Below are positions 39,161-53,743 of a stretch of 64,000 nucleotides of DNA, one piece after another. The position numbers were made by a program, and so were the translations under genes. The stretch lies in contig NZ_CP007215.2 in assembly GCF_000300455.3 (NCBI RefSeq), positions 1,426,001-1,490,000 on the forward strand, in the 5' to 3' direction. This DNA is from Kosakonia sacchari SP1 (lineage in GTDB: Bacteria; Pseudomonadota; Gammaproteobacteria; Enterobacterales; Enterobacteriaceae). Numbering within the stretch: the stretch's first letter is position 1; every line of letters begins with the position of its first letter. The notes below the pieces were generated by a model. It saw nothing but the letters and a program-made list of their open reading frames with translations. It was not told the origin of the DNA and ran no database searches.

Positions 39161-39685
39161 ATGTCGCACATCCTCAACCGCCAGCAGACTTTCCGCGCCC
39201 ACAGCGGTACGGAACTGGATGCGAAAAGCTGGCTCACCGAAGCGCCGTTGTGCATGCTGATGAATAACCCTGATCCCGATGTTTCTAAAAAACCGAACGC
39301 GCCGGTGTTGTATGGCGGCATGGGTCGCAGCCATCTTGATTCTGGTTCGGTGGCAAGCCCGAACCGTGAAACCGAAGCGATGCACAACGGTTCTGACGTC
39401 GTATCCACCTGGTCGTTGCTTAACACTGCCAGCTGCGCGAGCTGTGCCTCGCGTCATCACGGCGGTAGCGTGCGAATGGTTTTTTCCCGGCATGCAGGGG
39501 TGGTGATCGTTTGTGGTGACACAGATGAAGCGGCGGCACGCATTGCGCACGTGCTGCACAACGATCCGGCTACCGGTGTGATTCATCACGCTGACGCCGG
39601 GTATGAGATTGCGATTGAGTGCGCCGCCGCGCAGACGCTCAATCTTCCGATGGTTGCTGCAATGCAGGAGCAGGGCAAAGCATGA
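39161..39685 (+). pseudogene. hutU remnant with large in-frame internal deletion
   Basis: This 174-codon frame is a cut-down urocanase. Residues 1-56 align with residues 1-58 of the intact HutU at 43492-45168 (shared [10 protein letters not shown]-x-M-L-M-N-N) and the rest aligns with HutU from about residue 444 ([17 protein letters not shown]). About 385 residues, including the NAD-binding G-L-G-G-M-G-G-A-Q region and the active-site cysteine region, are gone; the junction is at a Gly-Arg that occurs at both ends. A further four-residue loss and many substitutions (for example S-C-A-S-C-A-S) follow. It cannot be an active urocanase, yet the frame is open and its TGA overlaps the hutH ATG (ATGA), so it may persist because it drives hutH translation. 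Confidence 0.88.
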
Positions 39686-41208
39686 AAAATTTCACTCTTA
39701 TTCCGGGCCAACTCACCCTCGCGCAGCTGCGCGAAATCTACAGCCAGCCTCTTCATCTGTCGCTGGATGATGGCGCGTTTGCGGCCATTAATGAGAGCGT
39801 TGCCTGCGTCAACACGATTATGACGGAAGGCCGCACCGCCTATGGCATCAACACGGGCTTCGGTTTGCTGGCGCAGACGCGTATCGCGACGGAAGATCTG
39901 GAGAATTTGCAACGCTCGCTGGTGCTCTCTCACGCGGCAGGCGTTGGCGAACCGCTGGATGACGCGCTGGTTCGCTTAATTATGGTGTTGAAGATCAACA
40001 GCCTGGCGCGCGGTTTTTCCGGCATTCGCTTGCAGGTGATCCAGATGCTGGTGGCGATGGTTAACGCGGAGGTTTATCCATGGATCCCGGCGAAAGGCTC
40101 GGTGGGCGCGTCCGGTGATCTCGCACCGCTGGCGCATATGTCGCTGACGCTGCTCGGCGAAGGCAAAGCGCGCTGGCAGGGGGAATGGTTACCGGCGAGT
40201 GAAGCGCTGAAAAATGCTGGCCTCGAGCCGATCACGCTGGCGGCGAAAGAGGGGCTGGCGCTGCTGAACGGTACGCAAACGTCCACTGCGTTTGCTTTGC
40301 GCGGCCTGTTTGAAGCCGAAGATCTGTTCGCTTCTGCTGTGGTTTGCGGTGCGTTGACCACTGAGGCGGCGCTCGGTTCGCGTCGTCCCTTCGATGCGCG
40401 TATTCATGACGTTCGCGGCCAACGCGGGCAGATTGACGCGGCGGCGTTATATCGCCATCTCTTAACCGATGACAGCGCCATTTCTCAGTCTCACCACAAC
40501 TGCAATAAAGTGCAGGATCCTTATTCCCTGCGCTGCCAGCCGCAGGTGATGGGCGCATGCCTGACGCAACTGCGTTTTGCTGCAGAAGTGCTGCTAACCG
40601 AAGCGAATGCAGTTTCCGATAACCCGCTGGTTTTCGCCGCTGAAAATGAAGTGATCTCCGGGGGAAATTTCCACGCTGAACCGGTGGCGATGGCGGCAGA
40701 CAATATTGCGCTGGCGATTGCTGAGATTGGCTCGCTGGCGGAGCGCCGTATCGCCCTGCTGATGGACAGTCATATGTCGCAATTGCCGCCGTTCCTGGTG
40801 AAAAACGGCGGTGTTAACTCTGGCTTTATGATTGCTCAGGTCACCGCAGCGGCGCTGGCAAGCGAAAACAAAGCGTTGTCACATCCGCATAGCGTGGACA
40901 GTTTGCCGACCTCGGCAAACCAGGAAGATCACGTCTCGATGGCTCCGGCTGCCGGGCGTCGCCTGTGGGAAATGGCGGCAAATACGCGTGGCGTCATTGC
41001 TGTCGAGTGGCTGGCCGCCTGCCAGGGGTTGGATATGCGCGAAGGCTTAACCAGCAGCCCGTTGCTGGAACAGGCGCGCCATCTGCTGCGCGAACAGGTT
41101 GCGCATTATGAGAAAGATCGTTATTTCGCGCCGGATATTGAACGTGCGATTGCGCTGCTGGCGGAACGCCATCTGACGACATTGCTGCCAGCAATAGTGT
41201 CTGGCTGA
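39682..41208 (+). CDS. hutH: Histidine ammonia-lyase HutH
   Basis: This 508-residue enzyme deaminates histidine to urocanate, the first step of the hut pathway. The MIO cofactor-forming Ala-Ser-Gly is in [14 protein letters not shown], and the catalytic residues in [22 protein letters not shown] and A-N-Q-E-D-H are all canonical. The start overlaps the stop of the hutU remnant by four bases; the frame opens earlier at 39619 inside that remnant. Length is normal (about 510). The promoter and HutC-like operator lie before the remnant. A terminator follows about 200 bases after the stop. Confidence 0.96.
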
Positions 41209-41441: not shown

Positions 41442-42242
41442 TTAACGGGACAGTCGTTGCTTACCCCAGTCGAGCGCGGTATTGATCAGGGAAATCAGTA
41501 GCTGGCGGAACGCTTCACTCTTCTCTTCGGAGAAAGCAAAACTCGTCTCATCCATGTAGCAGCACTGCGCCACTTCCAGCTGTATCGCATGGATGTTCTG
41601 TTGCGGTGCGCCGTAATGGCGGGTGATATACCCGCCTTTGAAGCGACCGTTGAGCACTTTCGTGTAGTGCGGAAATGCCTCGCAGCACGCCAGCAATGCG
41701 GCGCTCAGTTCCGGCGCGCAGCTTGCGCCATCGGCAGTACCGAAGTTTAGATCCGGCAGTTTGCCGTCAAACAAACGCGGAACCACCGATTTGATGGAGT
41801 GCGCATCCCACAGGAGCGCGTAGCCGAACGTGTCGCGCAGCCGCGCCAGTTCCTGCGCCAGCGCCTGGTGATAGGGCTGCCACACCGTATGCAAAATAGC
41901 AGTTTTCGTGGCGTCATCCGGCGCTTTACCCGCTTCGAACAGCGGTTCGCCGTCAAAAAAAATGTCCGGGAACAGGCCGGTAGTCGCGGTGTTGTATAAC
42001 GGTTTGTCATCTGCCGGGCGGTTTAAATCCACCACATAGCGGGAATAATTAGCGCTCAGCACGCTGGCACCAAGCTCGCGAATCGGCTGATACAGCAGCG
42101 GGATATGCCAGTCCGTATCCTCCAGACGTCGTGCCCGCGCAGTGAGACCGCTGGCAATTTCCGGCGTCAATTGCGTGCCGGGATGGGGCATACTGACCAA
42201 AAGCGGTAACCGGCCCTGATGTAATTCGAATGCGTTAGTCAT
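41442..42242 (-). CDS. hutG: N-formylglutamate deformylase HutG
   Basis: This 266-residue protein is the N-formylglutamate amidohydrolase type of HutG (PF05013 family), the last step of the five-step histidine pathway giving glutamate and formate. M-P-H-P-G-T near residue 19, L-L-W-D-A-H-S-I near residue 146 and the acidic Q-L-E-V-A-Q near residue 222 resemble the zinc-dependent amidohydrolase site. It is not the arginase-like formiminoglutamase of Klebsiella and Salmonella. The start at 42242 overlaps the hutI stop by eight bases; a longer frame to 42380 lies inside hutI. Confidence 0.92.
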
Positions 42243-43443
42243 GCCAGACTTCCTCCCCCTGATAGATAACCTGTTTTGACAGTGTTCCTCCCAGCCAGTA
42301 GCTGAGTTCTGCCGGATGCGCCACATCCCACGCGACAAAGCTGGCCTCTTTACCCGCCTGGAGCGTGCCGCAGCGTTCACTGATACCTAATGCGCGAGCG
42401 GCATGACAGGTCACTCCCGCCAGCGCTTCTTCAGGCGTCAGACGGAACAACGTGCAGGCCATGTTCATCATCAGGCGCAGCGACAACACGGGCGACGTAC
42501 CGGGGTTCAGATCGCTGGAAATCGCCATCGGCACCTGGTGCTGACGCAGCAGCGCGACCGGTGGCTGCTGGCTCTCGCGTAAAAAGTAAAAAGCCCCCGG
42601 TAGCAGAACGGCAGTGGTGCCGTGCTGCGCCATCAGTACGATATCTTCTTCGCACAAATACTCGAGGTGATCGGCGGAAAGCGCATTGTAGCGGGCAGCC
42701 AGCCCTGCCCCGTGCAGCAGAGAAAGCTGTTCGGCATGCAGTTTTACCGGTAAGCCAAGCTGCTGCGCTTTGCGGAAAACCCGCTCCACTTGCGGCGGTG
42801 AAAAGGCCAGATGTTCACAAAAAGCATCGACCGCATCGACCAGCCCTTGTGCGTGCCAGGCGGGTAGCCAGTGCTGGCAAATCTCGTCGATGTAGTCGTC
42901 AGCGCGCCCCTGATATTCGCCAGGCAAAGCATGCGCTGCCAGGCTGGTGCTGAAGAGAGTGAGCGGCATTTCTGCGCCAAGCGCGCGGATCACCTGCAAC
43001 ATTTTGCTTTCATCGGCAAAGCTGAGGCCATAACCGGATTTGATCTCAAGCGCGGTAACGCCGTCTTTACGCAGCGCGTCAATGCGCTTGCGGGCGCTTT
43101 CCAGCAGTTGTTGCTGGCTGGCGTTGCGGGTGGCATTGACGGTACTGATAATGCCGCCGCCTGCGGCGGCGATTTCCGCATAGCTCGCGCCATTGAGCCG
43201 CATCTCAAACTCCTTGCTGCGATCGCCGCCAAACACACTATGGCTATGGCAATCGATCAACCCGGGTGTAACCAGCCGTCCATGAAGGTCTACTTCACGA
43301 TCGACCATATCGTCCGGCTGCGTTCCTTCTTCGCCCAGCCATGAAATCTGCGGCCCGTCGGTGATCAGCGCACCGTGAGGGATCAGGTTGTATTTGCCCG
43401 CTTCCATAGTGGCAATCTGACAGTGACGCCATAAAATGCGCAT
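42235..43443 (-). CDS. hutI: Imidazolonepropionase HutI
   Basis: This 402-residue amidohydrolase opens the ring of imidazolone-5-propionate to N-formimino-glutamate. The metal ligands are in [16 protein letters not shown] and S-S-D-L-N-P-G, and K-S-G-Y-G-L is conserved. GGGAG is too close to the ATG at 43449 but seven bases from the ATG at 43443, so I chose the latter (M-R-I-L-W). It overlaps hutG and follows hutU by 48 bases in one hutU-hutI-hutG operon. Confidence 0.95.
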
Positions 43444-43491
43444 CCGCATTCTCCCGTCATGGTCGGCGCAGCAATCACCGCGCCGCCAGTT

Positions 43492-45168
43492 TTACTTTGC
43501 AATCATCGGTAAGTTGAGGCCGTGCTCTTTGGCACAGGCGATAGCTGAATCATAGCCTGCATCGGCATGGCGCATCACGCCCGTCGCCGGATCGTTATGC
43601 AGTACGCGGGCAATACGCTCTGCCGCTTCATCCGTACCATCACAGACGATAACCATCCCCGAATGCTGCGAGAAGCCCATGCCGACGCCTCCGCCGTGGT
43701 GCAGAGAAACCCAGGTTGCGCCGCTGGCGGTATTGAGCAACGCATTCAGCAAAGGCCAGTCGGAAACTGCATCGGAGCCATCTTTCATCGCTTCGGTTTC
43801 GCGGTTCGGGCTGGCAACGGAGCCGGAGTCCAGGTGATCGCGGCCAATGACAATCGGTGCGGAGACTTCGCCGCGACGCACCATTTCGTTAAACGCCAGC
43901 CCCAGGCGTGCGCGCTGCCCAAGACCAACCCAGCAGATTCGCGCAGGTAAGCCCTGGAAACTGATGCGCTCTTTCGCCATATCCAGCCAGCGGTGCAGAT
44001 GCGCATCATCCGCGATCAGCTCTTTTACCTTTTCATCGGTGCGATAGATATCTTCCGCATCACCGGAGAGCGCGGCCCAGCGGAATGGCCCGATACCGCG
44101 ACAGAACAGCGGGCGAATATAGGCGGGCACAAAACCCGGGAAATCGAAGGCGTTACTGACGCCCATCTCTTTCGCCATCTGGCGAATATTGTTGCCATAG
44201 TCGAAGGTCGGAATGCCCTGCTGTTGGAAGGCGAGCATTGCTTTAACGTGCTCGGCCATGGAGGCTTTCGCCGCCTGAGTCACCACGGCCGGTTCACTCT
44301 TCGCACGTTCGCGATACGCTTCCCACTGCCAGCCAATCGGCAAATAGCCGTTCAGCGGATCGTGGGCGCTGGTTTGATCGGTCACAAGATCGGGGCGAAC
44401 ACCGCGTTTAACCAGTTCCGGTAAGACTTCTGCCGCATTGCCGTGCAGCGCCACCGAGATGGCTTTGCCTTCGCGGGTATAGCGTTCAATACGCGCCAGC
44501 GCATCGTCCAGATCCGTTGCCTGCTCATCCACATACCCGGTACGCAGGCGGAAATCGATGCGCGATTGCTGGCACTCAATGTTCAGCGAGCAGGCGCCCG
44601 CCAGCGTGGCGGCCAGCGGCTGCGCACCGCCCATGCCGCCCAGACCTGCGGTCAGCACCCAGCGGCCGACCAGTGAACCGTTATAGTGCTGGCGACCCGC
44701 TTCGACAAAGGTTTCATACGTACCCTGAACGATCCCCTGGCTGCCGATATAGATCCAGGAGCCGGCGGTCATCTGGCCGTACATCGCCAGCCCTTTAGCG
44801 TCCAGCTCGTTAAAGTGCTCCCAGTTAGCCCAGTGGGGAACCAGGTTGGAGTTGGCGATCAGTACGCGCGGTGCGTTACTGTGGGTTTTAAACACGCCGA
44901 CCGGTTTACCGGACTGCACCAGCAGCGTTTCGTCATCGTTGAGCTGCTTTAGCGCTTCAACCATTTTGTCAAAGCACTCCCAATTACGCGCTGCCCGTCC
45001 AATTCCTCCATAAACCACCAGCTCTTTCGGGTTTTCCGCGACGTCGGGATCAAGGTTGTTCATCAGCATGCGCAGCGGCGCTTCGGTCAGCCAGCTTTTC
45101 GCATTCAATGTCGTGCCGCGTGGCGCTCTGATCTCAACATCACGATAACGGGATAATTCACTACTCAT
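43492..45168 (-). CDS. hutU: Urocanate hydratase HutU
   Basis: This 558-residue enzyme hydrates urocanate to imidazolone propionate with tightly bound NAD as electrophile. The NAD-binding [11 protein letters not shown] near residue 176, the [15 protein letters not shown] start and the C-terminal D-A-G-Y-D-S-A are intact, and length is standard. It is the only functional urocanase in the window and the template for the remnant at 39161. It heads the hutUIG operon, with a HutC-type palindrome 68 bases upstream. Confidence 0.96.
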
Positions 45169-45235: not shown

Positions 45236-45249
45236 CTTGTATATACATG
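45236..45249 (-). promoter_or_regulatory. HutC-type operator upstream of hutU
   Basis: CTTGTATATACATG is a near-perfect palindrome matching the HutC consensus, 68 bases before the hutU start. A half-similar TTGTACAC lies just beside it at about 45226. It is in the 484-base gap 45169-45652, which otherwise holds only AT-rich promoter sequence for hutU and for the divergent transporter operon. Confidence 0.75.
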
Positions 45250-45571: not shown

Positions 45572-45583
45572 TTGTACATACAA
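45572..45583 (+). promoter_or_regulatory. HutC-type operator upstream of the ABC transporter operon
   Basis: TTGTACATACAA is an exact palindrome (TTGTA-CA-TACAA) of the same type as the hutU and hutF sites, 69 bases before the ATPase gene. It ties the transporter and lyase genes to the HutC regulon. Confidence 0.7.
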
Positions 45584-45652: not shown

Positions 45653-46750
45653 ATGATTACTTTCAACAATGTGACCAAGCATTATCACGACGGTACCGTC
45701 GTGGTCGATGGCCTGAACCTTGTCGCGCCAGGAGGCAAAATTACTGTGCTGGTGGGGCCGTCGGGTTGTGGGAAAACCACCTCATTACGCATGATCAACC
45801 GGCTGGTGGAGCCCTCTTCCGGGACGATTTTGCTCAATGGTGAATCCACCGCTCAGATGGATGTTGTGCAGCTGCGCCGCCGTATTGGTTACGTGATCCA
45901 GAATGCCGGATTGTTCCCGCATAAAACTATCATCGATAACATTGCCACTACCGCCATCCTTAATGGTGCGGCGAAAAGCAAAGCCAGGGCCAGAGCGGCA
46001 GAATTACTGGAAGTGGTCGGCCTGGCGCCGCAACTGGCGAAACGCTATCCGTGGCAACTCTCCGGCGGACAACAGCAGCGCGTCGGCGTGGCGCGTGCGC
46101 TGGCTGCCGACCCGGAATTTATGCTGATGGACGAACCCTTCAGCGCCGTTGACCCCGTGGTGCGTGAACAGTTGCAGGAAGAGTTTCTGCGCATTCAGAA
46201 AGAGGTCAGCAAGACCATCATTATGGTCACGCACGATATTGATGAAGCAATGAAACTGGGTGATTGCGTTGCGGTGCTGAAACCTGGTGGCAAGCTGGCG
46301 CAACTGGCGACGCCGGGCGAACTGCTGAATGCGCCGCAGAGCGAATTTGTTGCTGACTTCATTGGCCGCGACCGCGGTTATCGCAAACTCAGTTTCCACA
46401 CTTCCGCACCGCTGACGGCGTTACAGGCGGAACCGATCATTGAAATGGGCGCGACTCTTGCGCAGGCACGCAATATCAGCACACAGCGTTGGTTGCTGGT
46501 GACGCAGCAGGGCAGAGCCTGCGGCTGGTTTGACACGCATCAGCAGGTAACGGTGATAGCGCCGGAAAACGTGAACCTTGGCGCGACGTTTTCTCCGCAG
46601 GGCGGCACGCTGCGCCAGTTGCTGGATTCGGCGCTCAGTTCTCCCTGCCATCGTGCCGTGGTGGTCGATGAACAGCTTGCCCCGCTGGGATCGCTGGCGC
46701 TGGACAATGTGCTGGATGCCTGCAAGTCGCTGACGCAGGAGGCGCTATGA
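45653..46750 (+). CDS. ABC transporter ATPase, quaternary-amine uptake type (OpuCA/OsmV-like)
   Basis: This 365-residue ATPase has Walker A G-P-S-G-C-G-K-T-T (residue about 35), signature L-S-G-G-Q-Q-Q-R-V (about 138), Walker B L-M-D-E-P-F and the switch histidine in V-T-H-D. The C-terminal 120 residues look like the CBS-domain pair seen in OpuCA and ProV, which transport glycine betaine and related compounds. It is the first of four transporter genes and overlaps the first permease by four bases (ATGA). The operon lies between hutU and hutD behind a HutC-like operator, so its substrate is probably linked to histidine. Confidence 0.9.
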   Translation: MITFNNVTKHYHDGTVVVDGLNLVAPGGKITVLVGPSGCGKTTSLRMINRLVEPSSGTILLNGESTAQMDVVQLRRRIGYVIQNAGLFPHKTIIDNIATTAILNGAAKSKARARAAELLEVVGLAPQLAKRYPWQLSGGQQQRVGVARALAADPEFMLMDEPFSAVDPVVREQLQEEFLRIQKEVSKTIIMVTHDIDEAMKLGDCVAVLKPGGKLAQLATPGELLNAPQSEFVADFIGRDRGYRKLSFHTSAPLTALQAEPIIEMGATLAQARNISTQRWLLVTQQGRACGWFDTHQQVTVIAPENVNLGATFSPQGGTLRQLLDSALSSPCHRAVVVDEQLAPLGSLALDNVLDACKSLTQEAL

Positions 46751-47391
46751 GATTTGACTGGCTGTGGGGGCAAAGCGACAGGATCCTCAGCTTGCTGCTC
46801 TGGCACTGCTATTTGTCGATTATGCCGATCCTGATTGGCCTGCTGCTGGCGATCCCGGTGGGTTGGGCGGTGAACAACCTGCCAAAAGTGAAAAGTATCA
46901 TCCTGAACCTGTTCGGCCTGCTGTACACCATTCCGTCGCTGGCGCTGTTCGTCCTGTTGCCGCCGCTGCTGAATACGCAAATTCTCGACCCAATTAACGT
47001 GGTTGTGGCGCTGACTATCTACAGCTTTGCGCTGCTGGTCAGAACCGTGTGCGACGGTCTGGATTCCGTCGCCGAAGATACCCGGCAGTCTGCTTTTGCG
47101 CTGGGGTACAAGCCGCTACAGCAATTTTTGCAGATCGACCTGCCGCTTGCCGTACCGGTGATCGGCTCCGGGCTGCGTGTAGCTGTGGTTTCGAATGTCA
47201 GCATCGTGTCAGTTGCCGCGCTGATTGGCGCGCCGCAGTTAGGTTCGCTGTTTACCCAGGGGTTTCAGCTTCAGTTCCTCACCCCGATTATCGCCGGGAT
47301 TGTGCTGTGCATCGCGCTGGCCTTCATTCTCGATTGCCTGGTGGTGGCGATAACCCGCTCTTTAAGCCGCTGGCAACCGCAAAGGGGATAA
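46747..47391 (+). CDS. ABC transporter permease (OpuCB-like), first
   Basis: This 214-residue protein has about five to six membrane helices and the permease EAA-type loop around Q-S-A-F-A-L-G-Y-K-P-L-Q-Q-F (residues about 115-128) that contacts the ATPase, in the style of OpuCB/YehW. It is translationally coupled to the ATPase gene (four-base overlap) and separated from the next permease gene by three bases. With its partner it should form the channel of a quaternary-amine-type importer. Confidence 0.9.
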   Translation: MRFDWLWGQSDRILSLLLWHCYLSIMPILIGLLLAIPVGWAVNNLPKVKSIILNLFGLLYTIPSLALFVLLPPLLNTQILDPINVVVALTIYSFALLVRTVCDGLDSVAEDTRQSAFALGYKPLQQFLQIDLPLAVPVIGSGLRVAVVSNVSIVSVAALIGAPQLGSLFTQGFQLQFLTPIIAGIVLCIALAFILDCLVVAITRSLSRWQPQRG

Positions 47392-47394
47392 CTG

Positions 47395-48075
47395 ATGAAT
47401 GAATGGTTTTTCGATCCCAGCCACTGGTTCGGAGACGACGGCATTGTGCCGCTGCTGTTGCAGCATATCGGTTACAGCGCGGCGGCGCTGGCGATTGCCG
47501 TCGCCATTGCGTTTCCGGTCGGCTGCTACACCGGGCATACAGGGAAAGGGGAAGCGCTGCTGATTGGCACCACCAATGCCCTGCGTTCGTTGCCCTCTTT
47601 TGGTCTGATTATTTTGCTGGTGATCCTGCTGGCGGGTTATTTCGAATCAGATTTGGCCTTTGTTTTTCCCTGCATCATCGTGCTGGTAGTGCTGGCGCTG
47701 CCGCCCGTGGCGCTGGGTGTACATGCGGGTATCCGTTCTGTCGATCCCAGCGTGCATGACGCGGCAAAAGGGATTGGTCTGACACCGCTTCAGGTGCTGT
47801 TGCAGGTTGAGTTGCCCTGCGCAATGCCGCTGATCCTCTCCGGGATCCGCAGTGCCGCGCTGCAAATTGTCTCCACAGCGACCATTGCGGCATATGTTTC
47901 ACTCGGCGGCCTGGGGCGATTGATTATCGACGGGCGTGCTGCCAACGACTTTGCACAGATGACTGCCGGGGCCCTCCTCGTCGCGCTGCTGGCATTGATC
48001 ATTGATCTCTTTTTTTCGCTTTCAGGGAAAGTCGTGGTTTCACCGGGCATCACCCGGAAAACCAAAAACCAGTGA
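47395..48075 (+). CDS. ABC transporter permease (OpuCD-like), second
   Basis: This 226-residue permease is a paralogue of the preceding one, with helices about 25-45, 60-80, 85-105, 145-165 and 190-210 and the EAA loop D-A-A-K-G-I-G-L-T-P-L-Q-V-L. The P-S-F-G-L-I-I segment in the second helix is shared with the OpuC/Osm permeases. The substrate-binding gene starts 33 bases downstream. Confidence 0.9.
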   Translation: MNEWFFDPSHWFGDDGIVPLLLQHIGYSAAALAIAVAIAFPVGCYTGHTGKGEALLIGTTNALRSLPSFGLIILLVILLAGYFESDLAFVFPCIIVLVVLALPPVALGVHAGIRSVDPSVHDAAKGIGLTPLQVLLQVELPCAMPLILSGIRSAALQIVSTATIAAYVSLGGLGRLIIDGRAANDFAQMTAGALLVALLALIIDLFFSLSGKVVVSPGITRKTKNQ

Positions 48076-48108
48076 TGTTGAGTCCTTTAATTACAGAAGG
48101 TTAATAAG

Positions 48109-48990
48109 ATGATTAAGAAACGCTATTTAACGTTGTTCAGTGCCGCGCTGCTGTCTGTCGCTTCTTCTGTCTGGGCTGCGGATGCCGGCCAGAAAGTGAT
48201 TATTGGTTCGGCGGATTTTCCGGAAAACCAGTTGCTGGCGACCATTTACGCCGGGGCGCTGGAAGCGCAAAACATTCCAGTCGAGAAAAAACTCAACATT
48301 GGTAGCCGTGAAGTCTATATCCCGGCGCTGCTCGATGGTTCCATCACCGTGATCCCTGAGTACAGCGGCGCGCTGTTAAGCTATCTGGATGCGAAAAACG
48401 ACGCGCACAGTTCGGAAGATGTGGCGAAAGCGCTGGCCGCTAAGCTGCCGGAAAAAGTGAAAATGCTGAACACGTCCACGGCGCAAAACAGCGATGTACT
48501 GGCGGTAACGAAGAAAACCGCCGACAAATACAAACTGAAAACCATCGACGATCTGAAACCTGTCGCCGGGCAGTTAGTGCTTGGCGGCCCGGCGGAGTGG
48601 AAAACTCGTCATGAAGGCGTTCCCGGCCTGCGTGAAGTTTACGGTCTGAATTTCAAAACCTTCAAAGTGCTGGATGTTGCTGGCCCGCTGACGCTGACAG
48701 CGCTGAAAAATAACCAGATTCAAGTAGCTGACCTGACCTCCACTACACCGGAAATCAAAAAAGATCACCTGGTTGCGCTGGAAGATCCGAAACACCTGTT
48801 TGCCGCGCAGAACATTGTGCCCATTATCGCCAGCAGCACACTGAACCCGACCATTGAAAGCACGCTGAACAAAATCTCCGCGCAGCTCACCACCGAAGAT
48901 CTGATCGCCATGAACGAGCAGCTTGCTGAGTTCGCCAGCATTGATGATGTGGCGCACCAGTGGCTGGTTAAACACCAACTGAGCAAGTAA
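48109..48990 (+). CDS. ABC transporter substrate-binding protein (OpuAC/OpuCC family)
   Basis: This 293-residue protein has a cleavable signal peptide (S-S-V-W-A-A-D, cleavage about residue 24) and the OpuAC-family fold: G-S-A-D-F-P-E-N-Q-L-L near residue 33, P-E-Y-S-G-A-L-L near residue 83, A-D-L-T-S-T-T-P-E-I near residue 208. P-E-Y-S/T-G is characteristic of binders of trimethylammonium compounds such as choline, glycine betaine and, in the EgtU branch, ergothioneine. AGAAGG precedes the start. The exact ligand is not known. Confidence 0.9.
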   Translation: MIKKRYLTLFSAALLSVASSVWAADAGQKVIIGSADFPENQLLATIYAGALEAQNIPVEKKLNIGSREVYIPALLDGSITVIPEYSGALLSYLDAKNDAHSSEDVAKALAAKLPEKVKMLNTSTAQNSDVLAVTKKTADKYKLKTIDDLKPVAGQLVLGGPAEWKTRHEGVPGLREVYGLNFKTFKVLDVAGPLTLTALKNNQIQVADLTSTTPEIKKDHLVALEDPKHLFAAQNIVPIIASSTLNPTIESTLNKISAQLTTEDLIAMNEQLAEFASIDDVAHQWLVKHQLSK

Positions 48991-49004
48991 GGAACGGCTG
49001 CGAG

Positions 49005-50564
49005 ATGACGACAACAATCCGTTCTTCCATGCCGCATATGGATGCGGTCACCTTAGGCACGGATGCCACGACCATTGATGAGCTGGTGCGCATTGCCGAT
49101 GGCGCTCAGGTTGTTCTGGCTGATGATGCGCTGGCGCAAATGGATAAGGTCAGCGGGTACATTCGTAAGGCGATTGCTGACGGGAAGGTGATTTATGGTC
49201 TGACAACCGGCGTGGGAGACCTGGTGACCGAGCGTCTCTCTGCGGATCAAATTGCCAGCGTGCAACTCAATATGCTGCGCAGTCACGCCTGCGGGATGGG
49301 ACCGGATTTGTCGGTGCGGGAAGTGCGGGCGATGATGGCGGTGATGCTGAAATCGCTGTTGCAGGGCTACAGCGGCGTCAGCTCTGAACTGGCGCAGCGT
49401 ATGTGTCTGATGCTGAACCGGCAGGTGACGCCATGGTCGCCTGCCAGCGGTTCCGTGGGGTATCTGATTGCTACTGCACATATCGGCTTATCGTTGTTTG
49501 GCGAAGGGCAGTGCTGGTATCAGGGCGAGCTGTTGCCTTCCGCCGACGCGCTGGCGAAAGCAGGCATTGCGCCACGTATTCCCGGCCCGCGCGAAGGACA
49601 CGCGCTGATCAGCGGCACGTATGAAATTACCGCACTGGCTTGTCTGGCAGTGCAGGATTTCGAGCAGTTGCTGCCGGTCGCGGATATGGCAGGCGGCATG
49701 TGTCTCGAAGCGCTGAAAGGCAATACCCGCGGCTATGACGCGCGTCTGCACGCCCTGCGTCCGCATGACGGGCAACAAGAAACAGCGCGCATTTTGCGCC
49801 GTTTACTGCGCGGCAGCGAGATCCTCCAGCATTACCGCGACTACCGGGTGCAGGACGCGCTCAGCTTACGCTGCATCCCGCAAATCCATGGCGCGGTGCG
49901 CGATCAACTGGCGCATTGCCGTCATATCGTTACCACCGAACTCAATTCGGTGACCGACAACCCGGTGTTTTTGATTGAAGACGATGCGCTGGTGATTTTG
50001 CCTGGCGGCAACGGTCACGGTGCGCCGCTGGCGCTGGCACTCGATGCGCTGGCGGTGGCTATTGCGCAACTGAGCACCGCGTCGCAGGCGCGTTCTGACC
50101 GTATTACTAACGTGCATCTTAGCGGCTTACCGGCGTTTCTGGTCGGTAAAAGCGGAGCCAATTCCGGGATGATGATCCCGCCGTATGTCGCCGCCGCGCT
50201 CGCCGGGGATAATCGCAGCCTGGCGGCACCCGCCAGCGTACATACGGTTTCCACCTGTGCCGGGCAGGAAGACCATATCAGCATGGGCGTCTCCTCGGCG
50301 CGAAAAGCGATGCAGGCGGTGGCAAATGCGGTGGATATTGTGGCGATTGAACTGCTGTGCGCTTGTCAGGCGATTGAATTTCACCGCCCGCTGCGTGCTT
50401 CGGTAGGTACGGAACTGACGCTGTCTCAGGTACGCCAGCAGGTCGCGTTTCGTGAAACCGATACGCCGCTGTACACGGATATGCATGCCGTCCGGGATCT
50501 GATTGCTGATGGGGAGCTGAGCCGCCAGCTTACTTTACTGATAAAGGAGGGGGCTGATGAGTGA
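49005..50564 (+). CDS. Divergent HutH-family lyase lacking canonical MIO context
   Basis: This 519-residue protein belongs to the aromatic amino acid ammonia-lyase superfamily but departs from HutH at its active site. The HutH segment [14 protein letters not shown] is replaced by G-S-V-G-Y-L-I-A-T-A-H; a stray Ala-Ser-Gly (147-149) lies just before it, three residues out of register. The L-N-G-T-Q asparagine is Ser (L-I-S-G-T-Y) and the tyrosine of Q-D-P-Y-S-L-R-C is Leu (Q-D-A-L-S-L-R-C). Retained are Y-G-L-T-T-G, R-S-H-A-C-G and Q-E-D-H. Ergothionase, which removes trimethylamine from ergothioneine, is a HutH relative that I recall does not need MIO. With a betaine-type ABC transporter in the same operon, a trimethylamine-lyase on hercynine or ergothioneine is my leading guess. 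The start is 14 bases after the binding-protein stop. Confidence 0.8.
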   Translation: MTTTIRSSMPHMDAVTLGTDATTIDELVRIADGAQVVLADDALAQMDKVSGYIRKAIADGKVIYGLTTGVGDLVTERLSADQIASVQLNMLRSHACGMGPDLSVREVRAMMAVMLKSLLQGYSGVSSELAQRMCLMLNRQVTPWSPASGSVGYLIATAHIGLSLFGEGQCWYQGELLPSADALAKAGIAPRIPGPREGHALISGTYEITALACLAVQDFEQLLPVADMAGGMCLEALKGNTRGYDARLHALRPHDGQQETARILRRLLRGSEILQHYRDYRVQDALSLRCIPQIHGAVRDQLAHCRHIVTTELNSVTDNPVFLIEDDALVILPGGNGHGAPLALALDALAVAIAQLSTASQARSDRITNVHLSGLPAFLVGKSGANSGMMIPPYVAAALAGDNRSLAAPASVHTVSTCAGQEDHISMGVSSARKAMQAVANAVDIVAIELLCACQAIEFHRPLRASVGTELTLSQVRQQVAFRETDTPLYTDMHAVRDLIADGELSRQLTLLIKEGADE

Positions 50565-50957
50565 AACTAATCGTCTGCTTAAGGGAAAATGGAGACTGGA
50601 TGTGTCGCGCGTATAGGTGGGCACGTGGCACGCTTCGCGATTATCTGGCACACGCAGCGGCTGTGGCGTACGCGAGGGAAATGGCGGGCAATGCTGCTTT
50701 GCTCAAGACGTATCAATGGCAAAGAGGTGCGCCTGGCAGTGCTGGTTCAGTCTGATAAACAGCAAGCGCAGGCGTTAAGCTGCGCGTGCCAAATCAACAA
50801 AGCCGCGCCGCTGGCATCCGTAATGTTCATAAAAGCTGTACTGGCCCGCGACGAAATGCCGCTGCGCGCGGATGGGGTTTATGAGCGGTTAATTGCCGAT
50901 GATGACGAGGGCTGGCGGCGTTTCAGAAGGTCGACGCCGCAGTTTAGCCGGTGTTAA
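50557..50957 (+). pseudogene. Frameshifted small gene after the lyase
   Basis: A start codon at 50557 has a near-perfect AAGGAGG six bases upstream and overlaps the lyase stop (ATGAGTGA). Its frame (M-S-E-T-N-R-L-L-K-G-K-W-R-L-D-V-S-R-V) ends in TAG after 19 codons, but a second frame continues from there for about 115 codons (K-W-R-A-M-L-L-C-S-R-R-I-N-G-K-E-V-R-L-A and onward to 50957), looking coding. A one-base change near 50610 would join them into a protein of about 130 residues that I do not recognise. It is either a pseudogene, a sequencing error or a frameshifted gene. The last 14 bases overlap hutD. Confidence 0.45.
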
Positions 50958-51507
50958 CGGATGTTAGCGTCACGCAGGCGAAAAGCGTGTCGCTGCCTGC
51001 GTTGACGGTAACCATCGCCGGGTTATCGATTAGCAGGCTGTCGTAATGATGCAGGGTATGGCATTCGCCTCCGACGATGACGTCAAGACGATTTCCGGCA
51101 TTGAACAGCAGCATTGTTCCCTGCTGATGTTGCCATGTGCCATCGCGCTCCCAGCATACCGTTGCCTGGGTGGTTTCACGGCGGTAAATCACGTTGAAAT
51201 CGAGCAACGGCCCGCCGACAACCTCGCAGAATACCTGGCTGTCGCCGTTAAAATCCGTCGCCTGAAACGGTGGAATTAACGCGCTACGCTGGTCATCAAT
51301 TGTCAGGAACATGCCTTCGCCTTCCAGCACGCTGATGCTTCGCAGGTAACCGGAGAAACATGAAAACGCCCCGTCTTCGCGGATCGTCGCAACCGATATG
51401 CGCCAGTCATACTGCTCGCTGGCGGGAAAACGACACACTTCGCGGGTGACGCCCTGGCCATTTTTCCAGCGCATCTCGGCGTAGCCGCTATAAGGCAGCA
51501 GCCTCAT
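50944..51507 (-). CDS. hutD: HutD family protein
   Basis: This 187-residue protein is HutD, a cupin-fold protein conserved in hut loci of proteobacteria. Its bicupin pattern can be seen in W-K-N-G-Q-G-V-T-R-E near residue 14 and W-R-I-S-V-A-T-I near residue 35. It is not an enzyme of the pathway; in Pseudomonas it was proposed to limit hut expression. Its start overlaps the hutC stop by four bases, so it is the second gene of a hutC-hutD operon. Confidence 0.9.
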   Translation of the reverse strand: MRLLPYSGYAEMRWKNGQGVTREVCRFPASEQYDWRISVATIREDGAFSCFSGYLRSISVLEGEGMFLTIDDQRSALIPPFQATDFNGDSQVFCEVVGGPLLDFNVIYRRETTQATVCWERDGTWQHQQGTMLLFNAGNRLDVIVGGECHTLHHYDSLLIDNPAMVTVNAGSDTLFACVTLTSVNTG

Positions 51508-52265
51508 TTGCGCATGCTTCCTTCCAGGCGGTAACGCGAACCCGGATAGACCAGGCGCACGCTGGTGACGATTTTCTTGTCCTGACGACCGGTCCAGGTG
51601 CGGCGGTTCACTTGCAGGCAGGGGGTGTGCTCATCTATTTCCAGGTAAACGCACTCGCTGCGGGGCACGTTCACCGCCTCGATAATATGCTCGCCTTCGA
51701 CAATCGGTGCGATGGACGAGAGATAGGCATTCGGGGTGATACGGGTGAAATCCTGTTGCAAATAGTCTGGCACAATCAGTGCATTCACCAGCCTGTCTTC
51801 CAGCATCACCGGAACGCCATCTTCATAATGGCAAATCAACGAATGGAACAGGCGACTGCCTTTCGGCAGATTAAAAGCCAGCGCTTGCTGCGCATCTGCA
51901 TGCTGCTGGGTCAGCTCCAGCACTCTGGCATGATGGCGATGGCCGCGGCTGGCAATCTCATCGGCAATGTTGTTGATTTCCAGCAATGCAGACTGCCCGC
52001 GGACTTCGGCGACAAAGGTGCCAACGCCCTGCATACGCACCAGCAGCCCTTCGGCGGTCAGTTCACGCAGTGCGCGGTTAATGGTCATCCGGCTGTAGCC
52101 AAACTGGCTGACCAGTTCGCTTTCGGACGGCACACGGTAGTTCACCGGCCAGGCGCCGCTGTGAATGTTGGTTTTAATCATGCTCTTCACCCTTTCATAG
52201 AAAGGGGCGGGCTGATCGAGACGTGTCTCGCCTGCGGCTGCTTTAAAAATATCGCTTTGCTCCAT
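51504..52265 (-). CDS. hutC: Histidine utilisation repressor HutC (GntR family)
   Basis: This 253-residue repressor has a GntR winged helix-turn-helix (residues 20-90; P-S-E-S-E-L-V-S-Q-F-G-Y-S-R-M-T-I-N-R-A-L) and a UTRA ligand-binding domain (about 105-245). HutC represses the hut genes until urocanate binds. GGAAAGGG precedes the ATG. It is divergent from hutF, with a palindromic site (ATGTATATACAT) between them that suggests autoregulation. Confidence 0.94.
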   Translation of the reverse strand: MEQSDIFKAAAGETRLDQPAPFYERVKSMIKTNIHSGAWPVNYRVPSESELVSQFGYSRMTINRALRELTAEGLLVRMQGVGTFVAEVRGQSALLEINNIADEIASRGHRHHARVLELTQQHADAQQALAFNLPKGSRLFHSLICHYEDGVPVMLEDRLVNALIVPDYLQQDFTRITPNAYLSSIAPIVEGEHIIEAVNVPRSECVYLEIDEHTPCLQVNRRTWTGRQDKKIVTSVRLVYPGSRYRLEGSMRK

Positions 52266-52333: not shown

Positions 52334-52345
52334 ATGTATATACAT
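52334..52345. promoter_or_regulatory. HutC-type operator between hutC and hutF
   Basis: ATGTATATACAT is a perfect 12-base palindrome with the TGTATATACA core shared by the hutU site. It lies 30 bases before the hutF start and should serve both divergent promoters. A run of alternating TA precedes it. Confidence 0.7.
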
Positions 52346-52375
52346 ATCAAATAACGCCAGGCGGTGAGGGGATAT

Positions 52376-53743
52376 ATGACGGTATATTTCGCGGCAAAAG
52401 CATTGTTGCCGCAGGGCTGGGCGGAGAATGTTCGCATTACGGTTTCCCCGCAGGGCATCATCACCGCGCTCGAAAGCGGTAGTCAGCCAGACGACACGAC
52501 GATTCGTCTGGAAGGTTTTTTGGTGCCGGGCATGCCAAACCTGCATTCGCACGCTTTTCAGCGTGCAATGGCCGGGCTAACCGAAGTGGTGGGCGATCCG
52601 GCAGACAGCTTCTGGACATGGCGCGATTTGATGTACCGGCTGGTGGATAAAATCACCCCCGAACAGCTGGAAATCATTGCCAGTTATCTGTACATCGAAA
52701 TGCTGAAGGCGGGTTATACCTCCGTTGCCGAATTTCACTATTTGCACCACGATCGTGGCGGAAAACCTTACGCACAGCCAGCCGAACTGGCGTTGCGTAT
52801 TTCGCAGGCGGCGAAAACGGCGGGTATTGGCCTGACATTACTGCCGGTGCTATATAGTTTCTCTGGTTTTGGCGGGCAGCCAGCGACCGCCGGGCAGAGC
52901 CGCTTTATTCACGATACGGAAAGTTATCTGGCACTGCATAATACACTGACTTCCCAGCTTGCTGCTGAGCCGATGCAGCGTACCGGGCTGTGCTTCCACT
53001 CGCTGCGAGCCGTTACGCCGGAACAGATGCAGAACGTGCTTAAGGCCTGTCCGCAAAAGCAGCCGGTACATATTCATATTGCCGAGCAGCAAAAAGAGGT
53101 TGATGACTGCGTGGCCTGGTCTGGATTGCGTCCGGTAGAGTGGCTTTATCAGCATATGCCGGTGGATGAGCAGTGGTGTCTGATCCATGCCACGCACATT
53201 ACGTCGCAGGAAACCCACCAGATTGCCGCTTCCGGCGCAGTGGCGGGTCTTTGCCTGACGACTGAAGCCAATCTTGGCGATGGTATTTTTCCGGGGCCGG
53301 ACTATCTTGCGCAGCAGGGGCGTTGGGGAATTGGCTCCGACAGCCATATCAGCGTCAGTGTCAGCGAGGATTTGCGCTGGTTTGAGTACGGGCAACGATT
53401 ACACAAACGGCGGCGCAACTTACTGTCTTTGCCGGATGAACCCTATGTAGGAAATGTGCTGTATCAGGGGGCATTGCAGGGTGGACGCCGTGCGCTGGGG
53501 CAGGCGATTGGTCAACTGGCGCCAGGCGATCGTGCGGATATGCTGTTGCTCGACAGCCGCGATCCCTTCCTGGCTGCCGCAGGCGATCGTGACCGTCTGA
53601 ACCGCTGGATTTTCGCCTGTTCGACAAACCCGATAAAAAGAGTGATGACAGGAGGGCGCTGGGTGATTGAAGAGGGGCGTCACGCGCAGGAAGAGCAGGT
53701 GACCTCCGCGTTTATTAAGGTCATGCAGCAACTGATGGCGTAA
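52376..53743 (+). CDS. hutF: Formimidoylglutamate deiminase HutF
   Basis: This 455-residue amidohydrolase deiminates N-formimino-L-glutamate to N-formyl-L-glutamate and ammonia, the step that distinguishes the five-step route. The zinc site is seen as L-H-S-H-A-F-Q near residue 60, H-I-A-E-Q near residue 233, H-A-T-H near residue 268 and G-S-D-S-H near residue 320. The ATG at 52376 has GAGGGG six bases upstream; the frame extends four codons further with GTG. The gene stands alone, divergent from hutC, and supplies the substrate of HutG. Confidence 0.94.
   Translation: MTVYFAAKALLPQGWAENVRITVSPQGIITALESGSQPDDTTIRLEGFLVPGMPNLHSHAFQRAMAGLTEVVGDPADSFWTWRDLMYRLVDKITPEQLEIIASYLYIEMLKAGYTSVAEFHYLHHDRGGKPYAQPAELALRISQAAKTAGIGLTLLPVLYSFSGFGGQPATAGQSRFIHDTESYLALHNTLTSQLAAEPMQRTGLCFHSLRAVTPEQMQNVLKACPQKQPVHIHIAEQQKEVDDCVAWSGLRPVEWLYQHMPVDEQWCLIHATHITSQETHQIAASGAVAGLCLTTEANLGDGIFPGPDYLAQQGRWGIGSDSHISVSVSEDLRWFEYGQRLHKRRRNLLSLPDEPYVGNVLYQGALQGGRRALGQAIGQLAPGDRADMLLLDSRDPFLAAAGDRDRLNRWIFACSTNPIKRVMTGGRWVIEEGRHAQEEQVTSAFIKVMQQLMA

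Follow-up and report, generated by a model that had tools for sequence, protein, structure and literature searches.

Ergothionase, described from Treponema denticola (structure 6S7J) and Burkholderia sp. HME13, has the fold of the histidase HutH without the 4-methylideneimidazole-5-one (MIO) group and eliminates trimethylamine from a histidine betaine (PMC13405746). Here, we analyzed a stretch of 64,000 nucleotides (the window) of the 4.90-Mb, single-contig genome of the plant-associated bacterium Kosakonia sacchari SP1, in which five plus-strand genes at positions 45653 to 50564, within the histidine utilization (hut) locus, encode an OpuC/EgtU-type ATP-binding cassette (ABC) importer and a HutH-family lyase. 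On balance, we lean toward the view that importer and lyase form a second, HutC-controlled entrance to histidine utilization, with hercynine (N-alpha-trimethylhistidine) as the most likely cargo.

Like ergothionase, the window lyase combines the HutH fold with the lack of MIO. Unlike ergothionase, to which it has 28% structure-based identity, it stands on a separate branch (support, 100/100), carries another deletion, and has HutU as its partner hydratase; where both ergothionase-type proteins in the alignment have a QKT segment, the window lyase has PYV. The locus also resembles the HutXWV-HutH1 system of Pseudomonas and a rhizobial hutXWV-lyase operon (G458), in which an ABC importer accompanies a MIO-less HutH relative in a hut locus. 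However, the Pseudomonas HutH1 lyase is 40 to 43% identical and forms a sister branch, and HutX is of the ProX type, whereas the window binding protein is of the EgtU type. By sequence and fold, this binding protein is closest to Streptococcus pneumoniae EgtU, of which it keeps the Glu375 and Arg379 positions but not the cage and thione-contact residues. Finally, the lyase shares with HutH the fold and most motifs outside the MIO site, but its MIO triad is deleted and it scores below the equivalog cutoff. Hercynine is an abundant fungal and actinobacterial metabolite. We found no bacterial route from hercynine to urocanate in the open-access collection searched, which lacks most subscription papers.

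The lyase has lost the MIO triad and retains other histidase residues

In the alignment with HutH, the lyase reads GSVGY---LIATAH, the MIO-forming Ala-Ser-Gly being deleted, and the same deletion is present in all eight orthologues, seven of them from Kosakonia genomes and one from G018. Orthologue and genome counts here include drafts, and G424 and G425 duplicate G008 and G010. Of histidine ammonia-lyase (HAL), the lyase retains the motifs with Tyr, His, Gln, Arg, and Glu as YGLTTG, RSHACG, VQDALSLR, and GQEDH, and all complete members keep the Glu in QEDH, a HAL-type motif. The positions of HAL Asn195, Tyr280, and Phe329 hold Ser, Leu, and Gly, respectively; this numbering is in part our assumption, with Y280, F329, and D145 matching mutant titles of HAL structures. 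The lyase scores 508.4 bits on the hutH model TIGR01225 (cutoff, 539.15), a model that is not decisive alone since the MIO-less L142 and L137-type proteins score above its cutoff. An AlphaFold2 model (mean predicted local distance difference test [pLDDT] of 90.5) adopts the HAL fold, with structural Z scores of 46.6 to Thermoplasma HAL (7tqr), 44.8 to Pseudomonas putida HAL, and 43.1 to ergothionase. As the model fits HAL and ergothionase alike, fold comparison was set aside as evidence on the substrate. Judged from these residues, we are highly confident that the lyase is not a histidase, and the living enzyme would use non-MIO chemistry.

The loci of relatives were the best 80 of 564 confirmed matches from a scan of named genomes. 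Their 108 lyase-family open reading frames (ORFs) comprised 33 with the MIO triad, 26 of window type, 25 of Pseudomonas HutH1 type, 13 of Bacillus type, 4 of Paenibacillus type, 4 of ergothionase type, and 3 fragments or odd genes. An identical three-residue deletion was observed in the window, Pseudomonas HutH1, Bacillus, and Paenibacillus types. In a tree of 63 rows picked from these ORFs, with the fragmented L134 and the odd L130 3879-5354 excluded, every group formed one side of a branch, with a support of 93/81 for ordinary HutH. The MIO-less groups W (which holds the window lyase), P, N, and B joined at 87/88, so that a single loss of MIO is likely for them. The ergothionase group (6s7j, a long branch, with four Rhizobium proteins) stood apart at 100/100. 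Its deletion at the MIO place, SSIGEGDITTLSH, differs from that of the lyase, and the two losses apparently occurred separately. By its sequence, the window lyase belongs to a MIO-less clade that is widespread and takes in the HutH1 encoded beside hutXWV in Pseudomonas. Whether this clade as a whole, rhizobial hutXWV-linked lyases included, consists of urocanate-forming histidine betaine lyases and not of histidases is a broader proposal that we put forward tentatively, our judgment falling somewhat on the side of doubt. Among 369 genomes sampled from the class, the motif was readable in 58 of 59 best-match loci (L100 was unreadable), and 3 of the 58 were MIO-less, namely, the window and both loci of G420.

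Several other arrangements were seen in these loci. In L161 (7226 to 11542; Pseudomonas) and L216 (a Rhizobiaceae genome), HutXWV importer genes are followed by a MIO-less HutH1-type lyase, annotated as a histidase but probably not one. In L142 and L144 (about 8.5 to 13 kb), a major facilitator superfamily transporter gene replaces the ABC importer upstream of Bacillus-type MIO-less lyases, and in L144 hutG-like, hutU, and hutI genes lie downstream. The excluded L130 gene, from Promicromonospora, reads ASIGT-GDLGALAG at the MIO place, matching neither deletion. A HutF-lyase fusion, considered for long ORFs in L217 and L132, was dropped since Pfam detected the lyase domain only. Trimethylamine methyltransferase or corrinoid genes were likewise rejected as neighbors of the Bacillus-type lyases, which are flanked by arginase-family, glutamate dehydrogenase, malic enzyme, HutD, and flavin adenine dinucleotide oxidoreductase genes; trimethylamine use thus has no support from the genes next to these lyases.

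The importer-lyase operon lies within the hut locus and carries a HutC-type site

The sequence-only reading of this DNA had placed the four importer genes and the lyase in one operon between hutU and hutD, and ORFs, Pfam, and NCBIfam scores agree with it (Table 1). The intergenic spacings of -4, +3, +33, and +14 bp are consistent with a single operon. On one side lie the divergent hutU-hutI-hutG genes (41442 to 45168, minus strand), and on the other hutD-hutC (50944 to 52265, minus strand), followed by hutF. That reading had also pointed to a HutC-like palindrome upstream, which was confirmed; it had overlooked both the missing MIO triad and the remnants of coenzyme A (CoA)-transferase and enoyl-CoA hydratase genes between the lyase and hutD.

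The palindrome TGTANNTACA, which we take to be the HutC operator, occurs three times in the 64 kb, each time at a hut or operon promoter, with one copy at 45573 before the ABC gene. Shuffling gave an expectation of 0.40 copies, and three were reached in 1 of 100 shuffles. With this palindrome at its promoter, the importer-lyase operon is a predicted member of the HutC regulon. Of 27 window-type loci, 18 have a HutC-type site close to where the operon or lyase begins. These 18 include Rouxiella, Serratia inhibens, and Acerihabitans, where hutU is not adjacent and this is the sole such site in about 21 kb. Regulators adjoining the operon exceed the HutC cutoff of 220 bits in Rouxiella (293 bits) and Rhizobium (244 and 230 bits). 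Urocanate is described as relieving HutC repression (PMC8871633).

TABLE 1 Features of the importer-lyase operon and the surrounding hut genes in the window
Feature	Position	Strand	Basis
ABC importer ATP-binding subunit	45653..46750	+	365 aa; Pfam ABC_tran 118 bits; best NCBIfam proV-type 290 bits, below cutoff 327
ABC importer permease 1	46747..47391	+	214 aa; Pfam BPD_transp_1 64 bits
ABC importer permease 2	47395..48075	+	226 aa; Pfam BPD_transp_1 78 bits
OpuAC-family solute-binding protein	48109..48990	+	293 aa; Pfam OpuAC 166 bits; EgtUC 102 bits; aromatic cage not conserved
HutH-family lyase without MIO triad, proposed amine-eliminating and urocanate-forming	49005..50564	+	519 aa; Pfam Lyase_aromatic 546 bits
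Remnant, start of type III CoA-transferase gene	50557..50646	+	tblastn with K. sacchari and relatives, 47-53% over 30-34 aa, E 5e-4 to 2e-3
Remnant, C-terminal half of enoyl-CoA hydratase gene	50622..50948	+	tblastn 51% over 123 aa, E 1e-28
hutH, ordinary histidase, MIO triad intact (start inferred)	39688..41208	+	TIGR01225 733 bits; motif alignment
hutG, N-formylglutamate deformylase (start approximate)	41442..42254	-	ORF; 74% to annotated hutG of Klebsiella plasmid
hutI, imidazolonepropionase	42235..43449	-	ORF; 73% to annotated imidazolonepropionase of Klebsiella plasmid
hutU, genuine urocanate hydratase	43492..45168	-	TIGR01228 1014 bits; thiourocanate hydratase model 690 bits, cutoff 930
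hutD	50944..51507	-	Pfam HutD 153 bits
hutC, repressor	51504..52265	-	TIGR02018 299 bits, cutoff 220
hutF, formimidoylglutamate deiminase	52364..53743	+	TIGR02022 679 bits, cutoff 413
HutC-type palindrome upstream of hutU	45238..45247		motif count
HutC-type palindrome TGTACATACA upstream of importer-lyase operon	45573..45582		motif count; same place in relatives
HutC-type palindrome between hutC and hutF	52335..52344		motif count

HutU accompanies the MIO-less lyase, also in islands and draft genomes in which no MIO-type histidase was found

All 25 searchable genomes with a MIO-less lyase had HutU above its cutoff (22 window type, 2 Paenibacillus type, and 1 Bacillus type; the L132 genome lies outside this set), versus 4 of 14 controls. 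In G447, one of these 25, all HutU matches are weaker (650 bits at best) and could represent HutU relatives. The lyase gene adjoins or is in line with hutU in Actinobacteria (L135 and L136) and Paenibacillus (L137, L138, and L141). In a Microbacterium and a metagenome-assembled genome (MAG) of Bifidobacteriaceae, hutU sits between the binding protein and lyase genes, and three Paenibacillus/Bacillus loci have the order permease-permease-binding protein-ATPase-lyase-hutU-hutI, followed in L137 by an arginase-family gene. The HutU proteins of L135, L136, and L137 score 886 to 998 bits on the hutU model and fall below the cutoff on both thiourocanate models.

The operon is present in 8 of 15 Kosakonia genomes, the window included. 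In five of these eight (G003, G004, G006, G009, and G010), hutG, hutI, hutU, the operon, hutD, hutC, and hutF lie together in 20 kb without hutH, which maps 0.9 Mb from the island or to a different contig. The islands of G000, G005, and G008 stand beside a hutH. In the window, a hutH of the MIO type stands 8 kb from the lyase, and directly upstream of it is a truncated hutU copy (39161 to 39685), probably the leftover of a canonical enterobacterial hutUH after the hutU of the island took over.

The same island without hutH, with the same three palindromes and an additional cytosine-annotated permease gene, was found on an IncFIB plasmid of Klebsiella pneumoniae (L192, 5075 to 18349). At least 80% of this plasmid island was found in one place in 163 of 72,556 plasmid records and in 2 of 5,426 Escherichia coli genomes; 275 plasmid records, 199 of them from Klebsiella, gave any match. 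Island genes are annotated as histidine ammonia-lyase and 8-oxoguanine deaminase in some plasmid records.

A whole-genome search revealed a MIO-type HutH in 26 of 30 genomes with a MIO-less lyase. In the other four (Rosenbergiella epipactidis, Paenibacillus eucommiae, Acetobacter okinawensis, and the Bifidobacteriaceae MAG, all drafts, the MAG being small), every HutH-family match at an E value of 1e-60 or better was MIO-less, yet HutU was present in all four. Urocanate import is an alternative reason for keeping hutU without hutH.

The binding protein and the proposed substrate

EgtUC is the nearest solved relative of the binding protein, both by sequence (102 bits, 31% identity) and by Foldseek with its AlphaFold2 model (pLDDT, 90.1); the Foldseek lead over choline, acetylcholine, and nicotine sensor proteins is marginal and not decisive for the substrate. 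Relative to EgtUC, the window protein carries F293Y, Y341D, Y419T, Y443Q, and, at the thione-contact positions 242 to 244, K242A, I243D, and G244F; E375 and R379 are the same. Among window-type proteins, Phe293 is replaced by Tyr, Glu375 and Arg379 are retained in 20 of 20, and the pocket is polar and acidic, with Asp at 243 and 341, Asp or Asn at 339, Arg at 275, and Gln at 443. With the cage largely replaced, a trimethylammonium group would have to rely on acidic residues and other aromatics for binding, unless the ligand is nonquaternary. The binding protein of the Paenibacillus-type lyases keeps an EgtU-like cage (Tyr293, Asn339, Tyr341, Phe419, and Tyr443), and Pseudomonas HutX best matches the ProX-like 7yle, its five Trp residues aligning with those of this betaine-type protein. 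These recurrent partners support hercynine as the substrate.

The absence of MIO, the HAL-type imidazole Glu, the urocanate-linked regulation, and the genuine HutU together point to a histidine derivative with a good leaving amine and to urocanate as the product. Hercynine is the simplest such derivative. In the proposed pathway, the importer would take up an N-alpha-modified histidine, most likely hercynine, and the lyase would remove the beta proton and expel the amine (trimethylamine from hercynine). MIO would not be required for this, as a quaternary amine can leave with no electrophilic activation. HutU, HutI, HutF, and HutG would then convert urocanate to glutamate, and urocanate would lift HutC repression. 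Gene order, triad loss, HutC-type sites, the genuine HutU, selection on the operon, and co-inheritance with hut are read directly from the DNA; urocanate as product and hercynine as substrate we infer, hercynine being the weakest step. That the lyase makes urocanate for the hut pathway seems probable to us, and our judgment is evenly poised on hercynine as the leading substrate.

Several observations weigh against the proposed pathway with hercynine. The window binding protein and 19 relatives lack the aromatic cage of EgtU: among these 20 aligned proteins, Tyr443 is Gln in all, Tyr341 is replaced by Asp (18 proteins) or Val (2 proteins), and position 419 is aromatic in only 4 (3 Phe and 1 Tyr), the others having Thr (14 proteins) or Leu (2 proteins). 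Downstream of the lyase, 16 of the 27 window-type loci contain a type III CoA-transferase gene, joined, by the ORF calls used, by an enoyl-CoA hydratase gene in 15 of the 16 and a 3-hydroxyacyl-CoA dehydrogenase gene in 13, and this module has no obvious use for hercynine and hut. No HutC-type site was found in 9 of the 27 window-type loci examined. Also, two Pantoea loci pair importer and lyase with an S-methyl-thiourocanate-hydratase-like gene (791 bits for a truncated protein; cutoff, 880), and relatives may take 2-thio compounds.

Regarding the CoA module, intact copies were seen in K. sacchari, Cedecea, Klebsiella indica, Rouxiella, Serratia, Burkholderia, and Rhizobium relatives, whereas only remnants are left in the window (Table 1) and, likewise, in G005 and G008. 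The five operon genes have ratios of nonsynonymous to synonymous substitution rates of 0.022 to 0.089 (window versus G005, G008, and K. sacchari), and such low values despite the deletion indicate that the operon works without the module. An essential role of the module was therefore rejected for the window genome, where it is deleted with the operon under purifying selection.

Alternative explanations

The polar and acidic pocket of the window-type binding proteins, in place of an aromatic one, would suit an N-alpha-substituted but nonquaternary histidine, such as a dimethylated or acid-bearing conjugate, giving urocanate and a leaving group degraded by the CoA module of the relatives; with that module in line with the lyase in the 16 loci, a second product that needs CoA activation is plausible. 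Nevertheless, the module is gone from the window lineage, where importer and lyase are still strongly selected, and is absent from the Klebsiella plasmid island, and nonquaternary amines are the usual substrates of MIO chemistry. We thus regard such a cargo as rather unlikely. Ergothioneine or another 2-thio derivative, with the lyase as a divergent ergothionase, would agree with EgtUC as the nearest solved binding protein, with the likewise MIO-less nature of ergothionase, and with the Pantoea relatives. In the latter (L131 and L140, about 1 to 11.5 kb), the S-methyl-thiourocanate-hydratase-like gene lies with molybdopterin oxidoreductase, amidohydrolase, and M20 peptidase genes upstream of the importer and lyase, which looks like a 2-thio-histidine catabolic cluster. 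Against ergothioneine stand the separate clade and different MIO deletion of the lyase, as well as the genuine HutU at the locus. Moreover, no thiourocanate hydratase scores above the cutoff in the window genome (best, 690 versus 930 bits), the EgtU thione contacts are lost, and in four Rhizobium loci (L124, L125, L126, and L129), genes for an ergothionase-type protein and a window-type lyase lie about 8 kb apart, which suggests separate jobs for the two; for these reasons, ergothioneine is improbable here. The ergothionase-type gene of L124 (604 to 2103), with 6s7j as best solved match, has a partial EgtU-like binding protein gene alongside.

A CoA-transferase, an enoyl-CoA hydratase, and a 3-hydroxyacyl-CoA dehydrogenase are the side-chain module expected for an arylacrylate, as if the lyase acted on other aromatic betaines (e.g., tryptophan betaine) and the hut neighborhood were incidental. 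However, this explanation, to which we give slightly less credence than to ergothioneine, conflicts with the QEDH Glu kept in all complete members, with HutC-type sites and HutC-family regulators even where hutU is not adjacent, and with the dispensability of the module. A histidine or urocanate importer with a second histidase (HutH2) would accord with the contribution of HutXWV to histidine uptake in P. fluorescens (PMC8871633) and with the histidase-like label given by family models. Nonetheless, a good hutH of the MIO type stands 8 kb from the lyase gene. The MIO triad is present in no complete window-type member, which contradicts MIO-dependent histidine deamination, an outcome that the sequence-only reading had named as counting against its proposal, and makes a HutH2 very improbable. 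Least credible of all is an operon for osmoprotectant uptake in which the lyase is an unrelated passenger. The importer does belong to the OpuC/OsmU family, but its binding protein reaches 86.7 bits on the OsmF/YehZ model NF049931 against a cutoff of 400, a HutC-type site stands at the promoter, and importer and lyase are inherited together in nearly all window-type loci looked at. As for the earlier claims on the substrate, hercynine, as a candidate, fits better than ergothioneine in view of the lyase without MIO, the HutC-type control, the genuine HutU and the thiourocanate hydratase result, and the hut islands and genomes with MIO-less members only. The argument from an OpuC-type fold to trimethylammonium binding is not supported, since EgtUC is nearest but the cage residues are largely replaced.

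Implications

If the hercynine reading is true, hercynine would gain a bacterial degradation route, and a further source of trimethylamine would be named. Many proteins annotated as histidine ammonia-lyase would be reassigned, and the second "histidases" of Pseudomonas would be explained, including the dispensability of HutH1 on histidine. It would also imply that a MIO enzyme can shed its cofactor once the leaving group no longer needs it. Overall, an overlooked entrance to histidine catabolism would exist in plant, soil, and nectar bacteria and on Klebsiella plasmids without hutH, giving a function to the island of which 163 of the 72,556 plasmid records carry at least 80%.

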